Part shown: positions 42,969 through 49,638 of the stretch, piece after piece
Position numbering within the stretch: position 1 is the stretch's first letter
Layout of the letters: each line of letters begins with the position of its first letter
From: Spirochaetaceae bacterium
GTDB lineage: Bacteria > Spirochaetota > Spirochaetia > DSM-27196 > PWMO01
Length of the DNA: 64,000 nt
Direction of reading: 5' to 3'
NCBI GenBank assembly: GCA_007693325.1
Contig: REDW01000066.1
Location: 1-64,000, forward strand
Notes under the pieces: generated by a model
Database searches by the model: none
What the model was told of the DNA's origin: nothing
The model's input: only the letters and a program-made list of their open reading frames with translations
Position numbers and translations under genes: made by a program

Positions 42969-43059
42969 CGCCGGCCCGCCGCACGCGCCTTGGGCGCAGC
43001 CGCTGTCGCGAAACCTCTTGACACAAGAAAAGCGGTTGCGATAGAGTTAGCCGTAACAA

Positions 43060-43143
43060 GCCCGAGTGGTGAAACTGGTAGACACGCTAGGTTCAGGGTC
43101 TAGTGGCCTTACGGCTGTGGAGGTTCAAGTCCTCTCTCGGGCA
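43060..43143 (+). tRNA. tRNA-Leu (anticodon CAG)
   Basis: GCCCGAG..CTCGGGC acceptor, anticodon loop TTCAGGG with stem CTAGG/TCTAG, long variable arm, T-arm GGAGGTTCAAGTCCTCT. Confidence 0.95.
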
Positions 43144-43146
43144 GAA

Positions 43147-43185
43147 AGAAAGCCGGGTGCCTTTTGGTGCCCGGCTTTCTTTTTG
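43147..43185 (+). terminator. Rho-independent terminator after tRNA-Leu
   Basis: AGAAAGCCGGGTGCC-TTTT-GGTGCCCGGCTTTCTTTTT. Confidence 0.92.
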
Positions 43186-43329
43186 CCAAGGATGGAGAGG
43201 ACTTGAAACGGAGGTGCGTGCGCGAATACCTGGAGCGCCGAGGCACAGGAGGTGCCGAGAGCACCGGAGGCGGGTCGGAGGGAGCGGACACGATGTCCGC
43301 GACTGGAGACCAAGTCCTCTCTCGGGCAT

Positions 43330-43367
43330 CAAAAAAGGTGATTGGCTTCATGTCGATCACCTTTTTC
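43330..43367 (+). terminator. Second terminator-like hairpin after the duplicated tRNA-Leu 3' end
   Basis: AAAAAAGGTGAT-tggcttcatgtcg-ATCACCTTTTTC. Confidence 0.75.
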
Positions 43368-43563
43368 GTTGGGGCCCTGAGGAGGACTTGAAACGCAGGC
43401 ACGGCGCGAGCCGGCGAGCGCAATCCGGCAGGATGCCGGATTAGTGCCGGAGGCGGCCTGGAATGCCGAGCAATGATCGGCTGGGATACCGCACTCGTTT
43501 TCTTTATGTCGCTGCGTAATGACGCAGGAGAAATCTTCTCCAAGGACAGTCGTCTCCCGGGTC

Positions 43564-44061
43564 CTACCTTTTTGCGAGCTTGATCGCCTGCCGCTCCAAC
43601 TGCTCACTGAGCCAGATACCGTTCGCGCGCATCGTGTTTATTGTTGATGCAATGTCTATCGCCTCCCCCCGGTGGATCGCGTGAATAATCAATCCAAGTG
43701 ACCCGGTGACGGACAGGCCGTTCAGTCTTGCAACGCGCCTGCCGATCGCTTCGTCAATGCACACCAGAGCGATCTGCTTTTCAAGAGCTGTCTGAATCAC
43801 TGAAGCCTCTCCACGATCAAGGGCCAATACGAGATCCTTGCGGACATTTACATCACTATGACTGATCTCAATGGGGCTACCCAGGTCGAGAATGTTCTGC
43901 CCGACCGCCGCGGTTGATCCGGCGCGTATTTCCCGAACGACTTCCCTCGGTACAAGCACTCGATGAAAGTGGCGGAGCACTACTTCAGGATGGGAAACAC
44001 CTGCTGCCAACGCGATGATCGGTCCAGTATTGATAACCAGACTAATGTGGGAGGTCGACAT
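43564..44061 (-). CDS. PIN-domain (DUF3368-type) toxin
   Basis: VINTGPIIALAAG..RVLVPREVVREI..LDRGEASVIQTALEKQIALVCIDEAIGRRVARL. Confidence 0.82.
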   Translation of the reverse strand: MSTSHISLVINTGPIIALAAGVSHPEVVLRHFHRVLVPREVVREIRAGSTAAVGQNILDLGSPIEISHSDVNVRKDLVLALDRGEASVIQTALEKQIALVCIDEAIGRRVARLNGLSVTGSLGLIIHAIHRGEAIDIASTINTMRANGIWLSEQLERQAIKLAKR

Positions 44062-44296
44062 CGTTCATCAACTCGTCGGGATCAAAGTTCATTGTACTGA
44101 CTTGGTATCGGGAAAGCTGCAGCAGAAATGACACTCTGGACATCCCCAACATGTCGGCCGCGACAGCGGATGAGATCTTCCCCATCTCATACAGCTTGGC
44201 CGCCATAGCCATCTTTGCTTCTGCCTCGAACTCACGCGCGGTGAGTTGTAGTAAATCGGGCAACGCCTCCGGGTAGTCGATCTGCAAATGGTTCAT
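44042..44296 (-). CDS. UPF0175-family antitoxin
   Basis: EAEAKMAMAAKLYEMGKISSAVAADMLGMSRVSFLLQLSRY; overlaps the PIN gene by 20 nt. Confidence 0.82.
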   Translation of the reverse strand: MNHLQIDYPEALPDLLQLTAREFEAEAKMAMAAKLYEMGKISSAVAADMLGMSRVSFLLQLSRYQVSTMNFDPDELMNDVDLPH

Positions 44297-46311: not shown

Positions 46312-49300
46312 ATGGCGAAGAAGATTCTCCTCGTAGAAGATGAAGCAATCATTGCCATGTCAGAGGCTCAGTTGCTCAAGAGACATGGATATGAGGTCGT
46401 CACCGCTCACAACGGCGAAAGAGCGATTGAAGCGGTAGACGCCGACCCCGAGATTTCGCTTATCCTCATGGACATCAATCTCGGAAGCGGGATGGACGGC
46501 ACAGAAGCTGCTGCGCAGATTCTCACCCGCCATGATATACCCACCGTATTTGTCACCAGCCACTCGGAGAAAGAGTATGTAGATAGGGTCAAGAAGATTA
46601 CCGGTTACGGATACGTACTCAAGAATTCGGGAGAATTCGTCCTGATCGAATCAATACATATGGCATACTCCCTGTTTGAGGCCAATGAGAAACTGAAAAC
46701 GGAGAACAGTGCGCGGAGGGAGACAGAAGAAGAGCTCTCATCGATCTATACCCACACTCCCGTTCTGATGCTGCTTCTGGACAAGGAGAGGAGGGTGCGC
46801 AAAGCAAATGCATTTGCCACACAATTTGCAGGCACCCCGGCCGAGGATATGATCGGAAAACGAGGGGGAGAAGCTCTGCGGTGCATCCATCATCTGGATA
46901 ACCCGAAAGGCTGCGGTTTCGGCCCTTTCTGCAAGGAATGCAGCGTTAAGCAAGTTGTAAAGAACACGTTCGCAAACGGCGAAGGGTATCACCGGGTGGA
47001 AGCTACTCTTCCCTTCATTCAGCACGGAGAGGAGCAACAGCTGACGTTTCTGGTCTCCACGTCTCTCCTCCACAAAAAAGAAGAAGATCTGTGTCTGGTA
47101 GCCTTTGAAGATATTACCGACTACAAACAGCTGCAGGAGAAGTACAAGGCGCTCTTTGACAATGCTCCACTGCCCTATCAATCTCTAGATAGGAACGGGA
47201 TTTTTCTCGGGGTAAACCCCGCCTGGCTTGAGACACTCGGCGGATACACACAAGAGGAAGTGATTGGAGCATCATTTGCCGAATTCCTGCACCCCGATTC
47301 GGTAGACGGGTTCAGAACCAATTTTGAAAAACTCAAAGAGCACGGTAGCGGCAAAGGCATCGTGTACAGGATGAGAAAGAAGAGCGGCGACTCCATGGAG
47401 GTATCTTTTGACGGCGTTGTAGCCTACACCGCTGGCGGTGATGTGAAACAGACCCATTGCATCTTGAAAGACGTTACCGAAGAGACGCGGATAAAGCGAG
47501 AACTGCAGGAAAGTGAGAAACGATTCAAGACGATTGTTGAGCATATTAATCAGGGCCTGATAATCCATGATTTTGATGGGATAATTACCTTTGTAAATGA
47601 CAAGGTATGCCGGGCACTCGGCTACTCCCAGGATGAACTAATAGGTAAATCCGTTGCAGGCCTGCATAGTCATTCTCATAGGAATTTTGTACAAAACGTT
47701 CTTGAGAATGCGGCATCGCCGGATGGAGACTCTTTTGAGATAGAGGCATTAAGCAAAGACGGCAAAGTGATACCGGTAGAAGTAAGGAGCAAAATCGTAT
47801 CAAGAGAAGGGGCCGGTGAGATTCAATCAGTCGTAACCGATATCACCAAGCGCAAACTCGCCGAGCAAGCGTTGAGCCAGAGCGAGATGACGTTGCGGCA
47901 GGTGATTGATCTTGTTCCCCACTTTATTTTTGCCAAGGATGCGCACGGCAACTACCTGTTGGCCAACAAAGCTGTTGCTGATGTACACGGAACCACTCCG
48001 GAAAGACTGCTGGGCAGAAGCGATTACGATTTCAGCCGCAACACCGAAGAAGTTGATTTCTTTGTTGCGTGCGACAGGAAGGTGATCGAAAGCGGAACAG
48101 GATTGTATAACATAGAAGAACCAATCACCGACTCAGACGGTTCAATACGATATCTTGAAACAACCAAGATTCCATTTACCGCCTCCACCAACGGAATCCC
48201 AGCGGTACTCGCTGTTTCGATCGATATAACCGAGCGCAAGCAAGCTGAACAGGCACTCGATCGGGAGCGAACACTGCTGCGTACCATAATCGATAGCATC
48301 CCTGATCCCATTTATGTGAAAGACATAGATGGCGGTATACAGTTGGCCAACAGAGCCGACTACCAACATTCGGGTTTCGAGCGGGAAGAAGACGTAATCG
48401 GTAAAACCGATTCTGACATATACCCCCCAGAGATTGCCAAGCGCTTTGTGGAGGACGACCAAAGAGTATTGATACACGGGCAGAGCGTGATAGACAGGGA
48501 AGAACAACTCATTACGCGAAATGGTGAAGTTGTCTGGCAACTAACCACCAAACTCCCCCTGTATGACCGCGATGGCAAAATCACCGGTCTGGTTGGAATA
48601 GGACACGACATCACCGAGCGCAAACAGGCCGAAGAACGCCTCCGGCAGGTGTTGAACGAGTACGACACGGTATTCCATGGAACCAGGGATATCATGTTCC
48701 TGATCGAAGTCATCGATGAGGACACCTATCGGTTCATCCGCAACAACCGGGCCCATGCCGAAGCTACAGGGTTCACAACGGAATGGATACAGAAGAAGAC
48801 ACCCCAGGAATTGCTGGGAGAAGAACGCGGCGCTGAGATTGCCGCCAATTGCCGGCGTTGTGTGCGTGCTTCCAGTTCCATTTCCTTTGAAGAGACCGTG
48901 AATACCCCCGGTGGACTAAGAACCTGGTATGTCACCGTGACCCCTGTTTTCAATCAAAGCAGGATCCAGTATTTGGTGGGGGCCGCTCAGGACATCACCG
49001 AGCGCAAACAGGCCGCGGAAGAAATCCAGCGTCAGCTGGCTGAGAAAGAAACCCTCCTCAAAGAAGTCCACCACCGCATGAAGAACAACATGGCACAGGT
49101 TGAAGGCTTACTTTCACTTCAGGCCGGTTCGGCCGATAGCGCTGAAGTCAAGTCCGCACTGAATGAAGCTATTTCGCGGGTTCGCAGTACTCGAACGCTC
49201 TATGATAAGCTTCTTATCGGAGAAAGGTACGAGGAGGTCTCGATGAGAGACTACCTTGAGGGCCTCATCGATTCACTGCTGGAAGTATTCAATGAGCGTT

Positions 49301-49638
49301 GCGGCGTAACAGTAGAGCAGAGCATTGTCGAGTTTACCCTCTGTTCGAGAAAGGCCGTTCCCGTAGGAATCATCTTGAATGAGCTTCTGACAAACGCTTT
49401 TAAGTATGCCTTTAAGGGACGCGACGAGGGCCGTGTCTCTATCGGTCTTGAGAAGACTGAAAAGCGGGTAACCCTTAGCGTTTGGGACGATGGCATCGGT
49501 ATTGATGAAGGGGTTGATGCCAACAACACTTCGGGGTTTGGCCTTTCTCTCGTCAAAATGCTCGCTGAACAGCTTGAAGGGGTCTTTTCTATCGCAAATG
49601 ATCACGGCACACGGAGCGTCTTGGAATTTGAAATATAA
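46312..49638 (+). CDS. Hybrid sensor histidine kinase: N-terminal REC, several PAS domains, HisKA_2-type kinase core
   Basis: KILLVEDEAIIAMSEAQLL; repeated DITERKQAEQAL; LLKEVHHRMKNNMAQVEGLLSLQ; HATPase ELLTNAFKYAF. Confidence 0.92.
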   Translation: MAKKILLVEDEAIIAMSEAQLLKRHGYEVVTAHNGERAIEAVDADPEISLILMDINLGSGMDGTEAAAQILTRHDIPTVFVTSHSEKEYVDRVKKITGYGYVLKNSGEFVLIESIHMAYSLFEANEKLKTENSARRETEEELSSIYTHTPVLMLLLDKERRVRKANAFATQFAGTPAEDMIGKRGGEALRCIHHLDNPKGCGFGPFCKECSVKQVVKNTFANGEGYHRVEATLPFIQHGEEQQLTFLVSTSLLHKKEEDLCLVAFEDITDYKQLQEKYKALFDNAPLPYQSLDRNGIFLGVNPAWLETLGGYTQEEVIGASFAEFLHPDSVDGFRTNFEKLKEHGSGKGIVYRMRKKSGDSMEVSFDGVVAYTAGGDVKQTHCILKDVTEETRIKRELQESEKRFKTIVEHINQGLIIHDFDGIITFVNDKVCRALGYSQDELIGKSVAGLHSHSHRNFVQNVLENAASPDGDSFEIEALSKDGKVIPVEVRSKIVSREGAGEIQSVVTDITKRKLAEQALSQSEMTLRQVIDLVPHFIFAKDAHGNYLLANKAVADVHGTTPERLLGRSDYDFSRNTEEVDFFVACDRKVIESGTGLYNIEEPITDSDGSIRYLETTKIPFTASTNGIPAVLAVSIDITERKQAEQALDRERTLLRTIIDSIPDPIYVKDIDGGIQLANRADYQHSGFEREEDVIGKTDSDIYPPEIAKRFVEDDQRVLIHGQSVIDREEQLITRNGEVVWQLTTKLPLYDRDGKITGLVGIGHDITERKQAEERLRQVLNEYDTVFHGTRDIMFLIEVIDEDTYRFIRNNRAHAEATGFTTEWIQKKTPQELLGEERGAEIAANCRRCVRASSSISFEETVNTPGGLRTWYVTVTPVFNQSRIQYLVGAAQDITERKQAAEEIQRQLAEKETLLKEVHHRMKNNMAQVEGLLSLQAGSADSAEVKSALNEAISRVRSTRTLYDKLLIGERYEEVSMRDYLEGLIDSLLEVFNERCGVTVEQSIVEFTLCSRKAVPVGIILNELLTNAFKYAFKGRDEGRVSIGLEKTEKRVTLSVWDDGIGIDEGVDANNTSGFGLSLVKMLAEQLEGVFSIANDHGTRSVLEFEI

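Follow-up and report, generated by a model that had tools for sequence, protein, structure and literature searches.

What is the block behind the tRNA-Leu(CAG) gene of this Spirochaetaceae bacterium: a functional RNA, a mini-element, or the remnant of a tRNA duplication? An earlier note on the window (the whole 64,000-nt stretch of DNA analysed here) had described a segment of 134 nt able to fold as a closed RNA. Comparison with related loci leads to the following answer: the block is a roughly 127-nt structured spirochaete tRNA-linked repeat between two terminator-like hairpins, and there is very little doubt that it belongs to a family of structured tRNA-linked RNAs with the TLR architecture.

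The locus is arranged in the order tRNA-Leu, hairpin T1, GAGAGGACTTG at 43195, a GC-rich body, the copied tRNA end, hairpin T2 and a second unit (Table 1). Both the copied tRNA end and the GAGGACTTGAAACG box recur after 185 nt, and units of about this length contain no gene. The block had been placed between tRNA-Leu copies; however, ARAGORN finds only one tRNA-Leu gene (43060-43143). A second gene was considered and rejected, since 43311-43328 merely repeats the last 18 nt of tRNA-Leu. The putative promoter was found by a consensus scan (10 of 12 consensus matches; 0.1 expected in shuffles), and T1 is missing from the output of the consensus scanner used for the promoter and terminator search. 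Directly behind unit B, on the minus strand, lie a DUF3368 gene (43564-44061) and a UPF0175 gene (44042-44296), a pair spanning 43564-44296 that resembles a toxin-antitoxin module in a Pfam scan. Farther along, the plus strand encodes a sensor kinase of 1108 aa (46312-49638) with an N-terminal receiver domain, several PAS domains and HisKA_2/HATPase at the end.

Table 1. Features of the tRNA-Leu locus in window coordinates; A1 is the 27-copy alignment described in the text.
Feature	Position	Strand	Basis or remark
Putative sigma70-like promoter of tRNA-Leu	43018..43047	+	TTGACA-18-TAGAGT; consensus match only
tRNA-Leu(CAG), host gene of the repeat	43060..43143	+	ARAGORN, Rfam RF00005
T1, terminator-like hairpin separating tRNA-Leu from unit A	43144..43187	+	inverted repeat 43140-43157/43170-43187, T run
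Unit A, structured RNA element P1 to P1'	43195..43321	+	covariance model 132 bits, E 6e-29; six-helix fold with covariation
P1 5' arm	43195..43205	+	reverse complement of tRNA T-arm 3' half
P2	43213..43265 (43213-43217 with 43261-43265)	+	encloses P3 and P4; double changes in 4/5 pairs of A1
P3 hairpin	43220..43238	+	GCGC stem, conserved G-A steps; 100% of cells paired in A1
P4 hairpin GGCAC-AGGAG-GTGCC	43242..43256	+	double changes in 7/8 family P4 pairs; loop motif
P5	43273..43311 (43273-43276 with 43308-43311)	+	GGA/GGA internal loop, encloses P6; double changes in 3/3 modelled pairs
P6 hairpin GCGGACA-CGA-TGTCCGC	43284..43300	+	loop without GGA; double changes in 7/8 helix 6 pairs
Copy of last 18 nt of tRNA-Leu	43311..43328	+	18/18 identical; first 11 nt = P1 3' arm
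T2, terminator-like hairpin 3' of unit A	43327..43371	+	inverted repeat 43327-43342/43356-43371, T run
Unit B, second decayed copy	43380..43504	+	model match 63 bits, E 6e-12; opening box same as unit A

The individual parts of the fold described earlier were found in place: GAGAGGACTTG (43195-43205) is the exact reverse complement of CAAGTCCTCTC (43311-43321) and gives the 11-bp terminal stem, both proposed hairpins (P4 and P6) lie inside the block, the second unit contains the hairpin AATCCGGCA-GGA-TGCCGGATT, and the CCGGAGGCGG boxes stand at 43264 and 43447, at offsets of 67 and 65 nt. Taken alone, the CCGGAGGCGG box is not clearly above chance in the window. When 43144-43380 was mononucleotide-shuffled 2000 times, a perfect 11-bp inverted repeat appeared in only 8 cases. 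The folding energy of the block is -58.7 kcal/mol (z = -4.3), and none of 200 shuffles is as good.

One could still regard the block as a chance inverted repeat or a decayed tRNA duplication without an RNA function, given that no element copies were found in its own genome apart from the 43-kb locus and that unit B is decayed, its 3' end agreeing with the tRNA at 9 of 18 positions without a matching tRNA-end copy. This explanation is hardly tenable: it is refuted by covariation across the family, and it conflicts with the presence of the element in 98 of the 248 genomes of the class and with the folding of four full-length copies, unit A among them, at z-scores from -4.3 to -5.5.

The covariation was assessed in a sequence-only MAFFT alignment of 27 copies (A1). 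The alignment fits six helices, in which P1 closes the element, P2 encloses P3 and P4, and P5 encloses P6; 89.4% of the cells are paired, and 29 of the 39 pairs have changed on both sides. The covariation score is 0.532; shuffles reach 0.167, and versions in which the structure is slid score about 0.1 or less. P1 counts less as evidence for RNA pairing, since both its arms copy the tRNA, and the argument is carried by P2 and P4-P6; still, the P1 arms within one copy pair at 10.1 of 11 positions, versus 8.3 when arms are mixed between copies. A lack of compensatory changes in homologous copies, together with the absence of a transcript, would have refuted the fold according to the earlier note, and such changes proved abundant. 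They support its suggestion of a tRNA-derived ncRNA closed by a terminal stem, although the existence of a transcript remains unproven. The same note had proposed that the inverted T-arm pairs with tRNA-Leu itself; to judge by the letters this is possible over 13 nt, there are no pairing data, and the conservation of the inverted T-arm is explained by pairing within the element.

To follow the family through genomes, we used a covariance model of the element (R1); the score of unit A in Table 1 is that of a member of the training set of the model. A search with the DNA of the block gave matches in 40 of 41 related genomes; a large part of the matched sequence is tRNA only, but often the block is matched too. 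At the related loci that were inspected, other tRNAs are likewise followed by this opening box, the body and a copied tRNA end. R1 matches occur in 30 of the 46 genomes of the order, in the 98 genomes of the class mentioned above and in three genomes from other classes of the phylum; strict filters lose weak copies, so these counts are lower bounds. The highest copy number, 27, was observed in a complete genome (G007). Several R1 copies sit at contig ends, as expected where tandem arrays break draft assemblies, and copy numbers in draft assemblies are likely too low. Since the weak matches outside the class (L099, L169, L175, L181, L185) still adjoin tRNA genes, the family may be older than the class.

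Outside the phylum, a scan for the P3 pattern across about 85,000 named species returned 58 contigs, and all R1 matches among them are Spirochaete records; no element outside Spirochaetota was recognised by R1 on these contigs. A search of viral contigs gave none. Rfam 15 at gathering thresholds reported only tRNA and SRP RNA; sub-threshold matches in permissive scans look like chance or tRNA overlap and were discarded. Our view of prior publication is limited to Rfam and the open-access literature.

The family is linked to tRNA genes, behind which the elements lie at a distance of about 50 nt. In the retrieved loci, an upstream tRNA on the same strand accompanies 85 of the 93 copies (for the other 8, the retrieved locus shows no upstream tRNA), and 13 tRNA species host copies. 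The closing stem is formed by a copy of the neighbouring tRNA 3' end and its reverse complement, and varies with the host tRNA (Leu, Pro, Met, Arg, Asn, Gly, Trp, Ser). Compared with the final 18 nt of its own tRNA, the 3' end of an element agrees at 16.1 positions on average (85 copies), versus 9.4 for other tRNAs; agreement with the own tRNA at 15 or more positions was observed in 67 copies and in none of the controls. The window contains two units, and up to about six are found at loci elsewhere. At one locus of the same genus (L010, genome G003; 26-150), the 5' half resembles unit B of the window and the 3' half unit A, a mosaic that, as far as such resemblance can tell, suggests recombination between neighbouring units.

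Alike bodies are found behind different tRNAs with P1 refitted, and tRNA-Leu(CAG) loci without the element exist in related genomes; hence copies have been gained, lost or moved. The second suggestion of the earlier note, a mini-element with terminal inverted repeats, holds insofar as the repeats are tRNA-derived and the units are tandem and stand behind many tRNAs, but neither an enzyme nor a mechanism for mobilisation came to light. In its strongest form, the suggestion would make the block a selfish mini-element: it would duplicate the tRNA 3' ends at which it inserts, and its RNA fold would serve its own spread. Duplicated tRNA ends, tandem heterogeneous units, refitted P1 stems on similar bodies and element-free loci in relatives all agree with such an origin. 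We nevertheless consider it improbable, as the identity of the bodies is low, the spread is old and phylum-wide, and P1 is always fitted to the local tRNA; in addition, there is no viral match and no recombinase among the four Pfam-scanned genes near the window copy, although the latter concerns this locus only.

The surroundings of the element, as opposed to its body, bear on how an RNA might be made from it. A terminator-like hairpin separates the tRNA from the element in 50 of 58 related loci, versus 13 of 174 shuffled spacers, and a second one lies 3' of the element in 34 of the 58. In several genomes, the element is found within a multi-tRNA cluster, which suggests that tRNA transcription reads through it; this rests on layout only, without expression data. 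With the same reservation about expression, the element RNA is probably a product of the tRNA promoter, made when T1 is partly read through.

The loops of P4 and P6 point to a candidate ligand. Nearly all copies have CA(N)GGA-N-G in the P4 loop, and the P6 loop reads CA(G/C)GA-N-G, with GGA in about half of the copies and CGA in the rest, including unit A. The motif CA(N)GGANG is present in 82 of the 93 copies, versus 13.9 (maximum 22) in dinucleotide shuffles; two or more motifs occur in 34 of the 93, whereas the window units have one loop site each. The repeat of CsrB is CAGGA(U/A/C)G in a hairpin loop, and the SELEX consensus for CsrA is RUACARGGAUGU (PMC7652899). In sequence, the P4 loop motif is the motif of CsrB and of CsrA sites and is close to the SELEX consensus. 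In unit A, the candidate CsrA site, for which there are no binding data, is CAGGAGG at 43246-43252 in P4; in unit B, P4 (43422-43442) has CAGGATG at 43429-43435. CsrA is encoded by the host genome. From these features we infer, with moderate confidence and without binding data, that CsrA is the ligand of the element hairpins.

Elements and CsrA also tend to occur in the same genomes. CsrA was detected in 188 of the 248 class genomes. Among good genomes (at least 90% complete and at most 5% contaminated), elements were found in 53 of 128 with CsrA versus 5 of 43 without it (Fisher p = 3e-4 for any element, phylogeny ignored). Four of these five CsrA-less genomes have lost hairpins or GGA; a second Fisher test (p = 2e-7) is illustrative only, as the hairpins of the 53 were not individually checked and phylogeny was again ignored. 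The fifth is G121, a draft of 130 contigs, and CsrA is present in its congeners.

Loss of the hairpins is best seen in genus g27 (family f19), where no CsrA match was found in seven genomes. R1 matches seven elements in five of these genomes. With a length of about 80 nt, they retain P1, P5 and part of P2/P3, but P6 is missing and no P4 can be recognised. Against the CsrA reading, a CAGGA string is still present elsewhere in the element in three g27 copies: CAGGAGCG stands in the P2/P3 part of two of the six short copies checked, and CAGGAATG in this part of the seventh (L192). In addition, GGA is left in P5 of some short forms. In the sister genus, CsrA is present in two genomes; in a third, which is 90% complete and 7% contaminated and gave no CsrA match, the element is full and both of its loops contain GGA. 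Another genome without CsrA, G231, has the P4 loop CAGTAGG and a diverged P6. GGA loops are also kept in a few genomes without a CsrA match (G121, G167, G171, G205), which we attribute to incomplete assemblies, as their congeners bear CsrA. When 40 genomes, most of them lacking a CsrA match, were searched without strict filters, only the g27 short forms and one marginal match were recovered. The association with CsrA is phylogenetically confounded, resting on essentially one clean hairpin-loss lineage and one degenerate copy.

This confounding leaves room for a structured tRNA-linked RNA whose loops are not for CsrA and serve folding or tertiary docking, another protein or anti-Shine-Dalgarno pairing, with co-occurrence due to shared ancestry. 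The P6 loop, CA(C/G)GA-N-G, tolerates C for G, and conserved G-A and GGA/GGA internal loops lie outside the hairpins, both as such a role would allow. We consider it unlikely, though not to be dismissed, because GGA is kept in P4 of nearly all copies although the stem varies freely, and because the CsrA-less genus g27 is without both loop hairpins.

The best explanation, to which we give somewhat more credence than doubt in the absence of expression or binding data, is that read-through RNA from tRNA promoters binds and titrates CsrA. The proposed pathway would include the following steps: (i) RNA polymerase starting at the tRNA promoter partly reads through T1, (ii) the read-through RNA folds on P1, (iii) RNase P, RNase Z, RNase E or exonucleases process it near the copied tRNA end and so set a stable RNA free, and (iv) P4, and often P6 too, bind CsrA. 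By inference, release or protection of the RNA by tRNA-processing nucleases would be made possible by its tRNA-like end, and the level of the RNA would follow tRNA transcription, titrating CsrA in step with growth. Whether titration of CsrA is the purpose of the element is, on inference alone, evenly balanced. Several observations do not fit a CsrA decoy: the P6 loop is CGA in about half of the copies, including unit A; there are one or two sites per unit, far below CsrB; and the own genome has a single locus. That most copies are preceded by a terminator also counts against it. The broader picture of a distributed CsrA-decoy system in spirochaetes, in which many small RNAs cut from tRNA transcripts, each with the 3' end of its host tRNA, tie post-transcriptional control on a global scale to tRNA synthesis and, through it, to growth rate, is offered tentatively and falls slightly short of even chances.

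Among known systems, the closest in layout are the TLRs of E. coli, known since 1978 and described as having no known function, which lie behind a tRNA gene, contain an 18-19 nt copy of its 3' end and form one to five tandem units (PMC8144298). Position, tRNA-end copy, tandem units and flanking terminators are shared by the spirochaete elements and these TLRs, including the tyrT rtT RNA (annotated rttR). The E. coli tyrT units (L195) also have a 10-nt inverted copy, GGGGAAGGAT, closing on the tRNA-end copy, and the closing stem is therefore a shared design. The spirochaete family differs in having a common six-helix body behind many tRNAs and GGA hairpins. The best match to the tyrT units (15.2 bits, E = 0.003 in 2.4 kb) is not significant genome-wide, and Rfam RtT gave no match to the element. 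On the strength of this comparison, we class the family with the TLRs by its architecture, without claiming proven homology to those of E. coli. The TLRs of E. coli tRNA operons were scored as unlikely CsrA binders by InvenireSRNA (PMC8144298).

A second group of E. coli TLRs, rrA, rrB and rrF, lies between T1 and T2 of rRNA operons, is made by T1 read-through (87% termination reported) and binds CsrA in vitro through loop GGAs (PMC8144298). The likeness extends to the stable-RNA operon, the copy of a mature RNA 3' end, the dual terminators and the GGA hairpins, and the rrB stretch of rrnB (L197) contains the hairpin GGGCAGGACGCCC, which resembles P6. Unlike our element, these repeats lie behind 5S rRNA and not tRNA, and rrB has no inverted copy of the 5S end adjoining the repeat. 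R1 scores rrB at 4.0 bits, a value reached by 1 of 300 shuffles, and homology is unproven.

CsrB, CsrC, RsmY and RsmZ likewise have CAGGA(U/A/C)G-type repeats in hairpin loops, whereas the element has one or two hairpins per unit, is spread over tRNA loci without a stand-alone gene, belongs to another phylum and gave no match to an Rfam family of the CsrB/RsmZ group. CsrB-family RNAs are described as widespread in Gammaproteobacteria, and FliW is the CsrA antagonist in some other bacteria (PMC7652899). If spirochaetes do have CsrA decoys, these would be a solution of their own, with built-in growth coupling. Since it has no match in Rfam 15, the family could be annotated now. Its members share a fold and an apparent ligand motif, and together with the natural experiment offered by hairpin loss, this makes the old puzzle of the TLRs directly testable.
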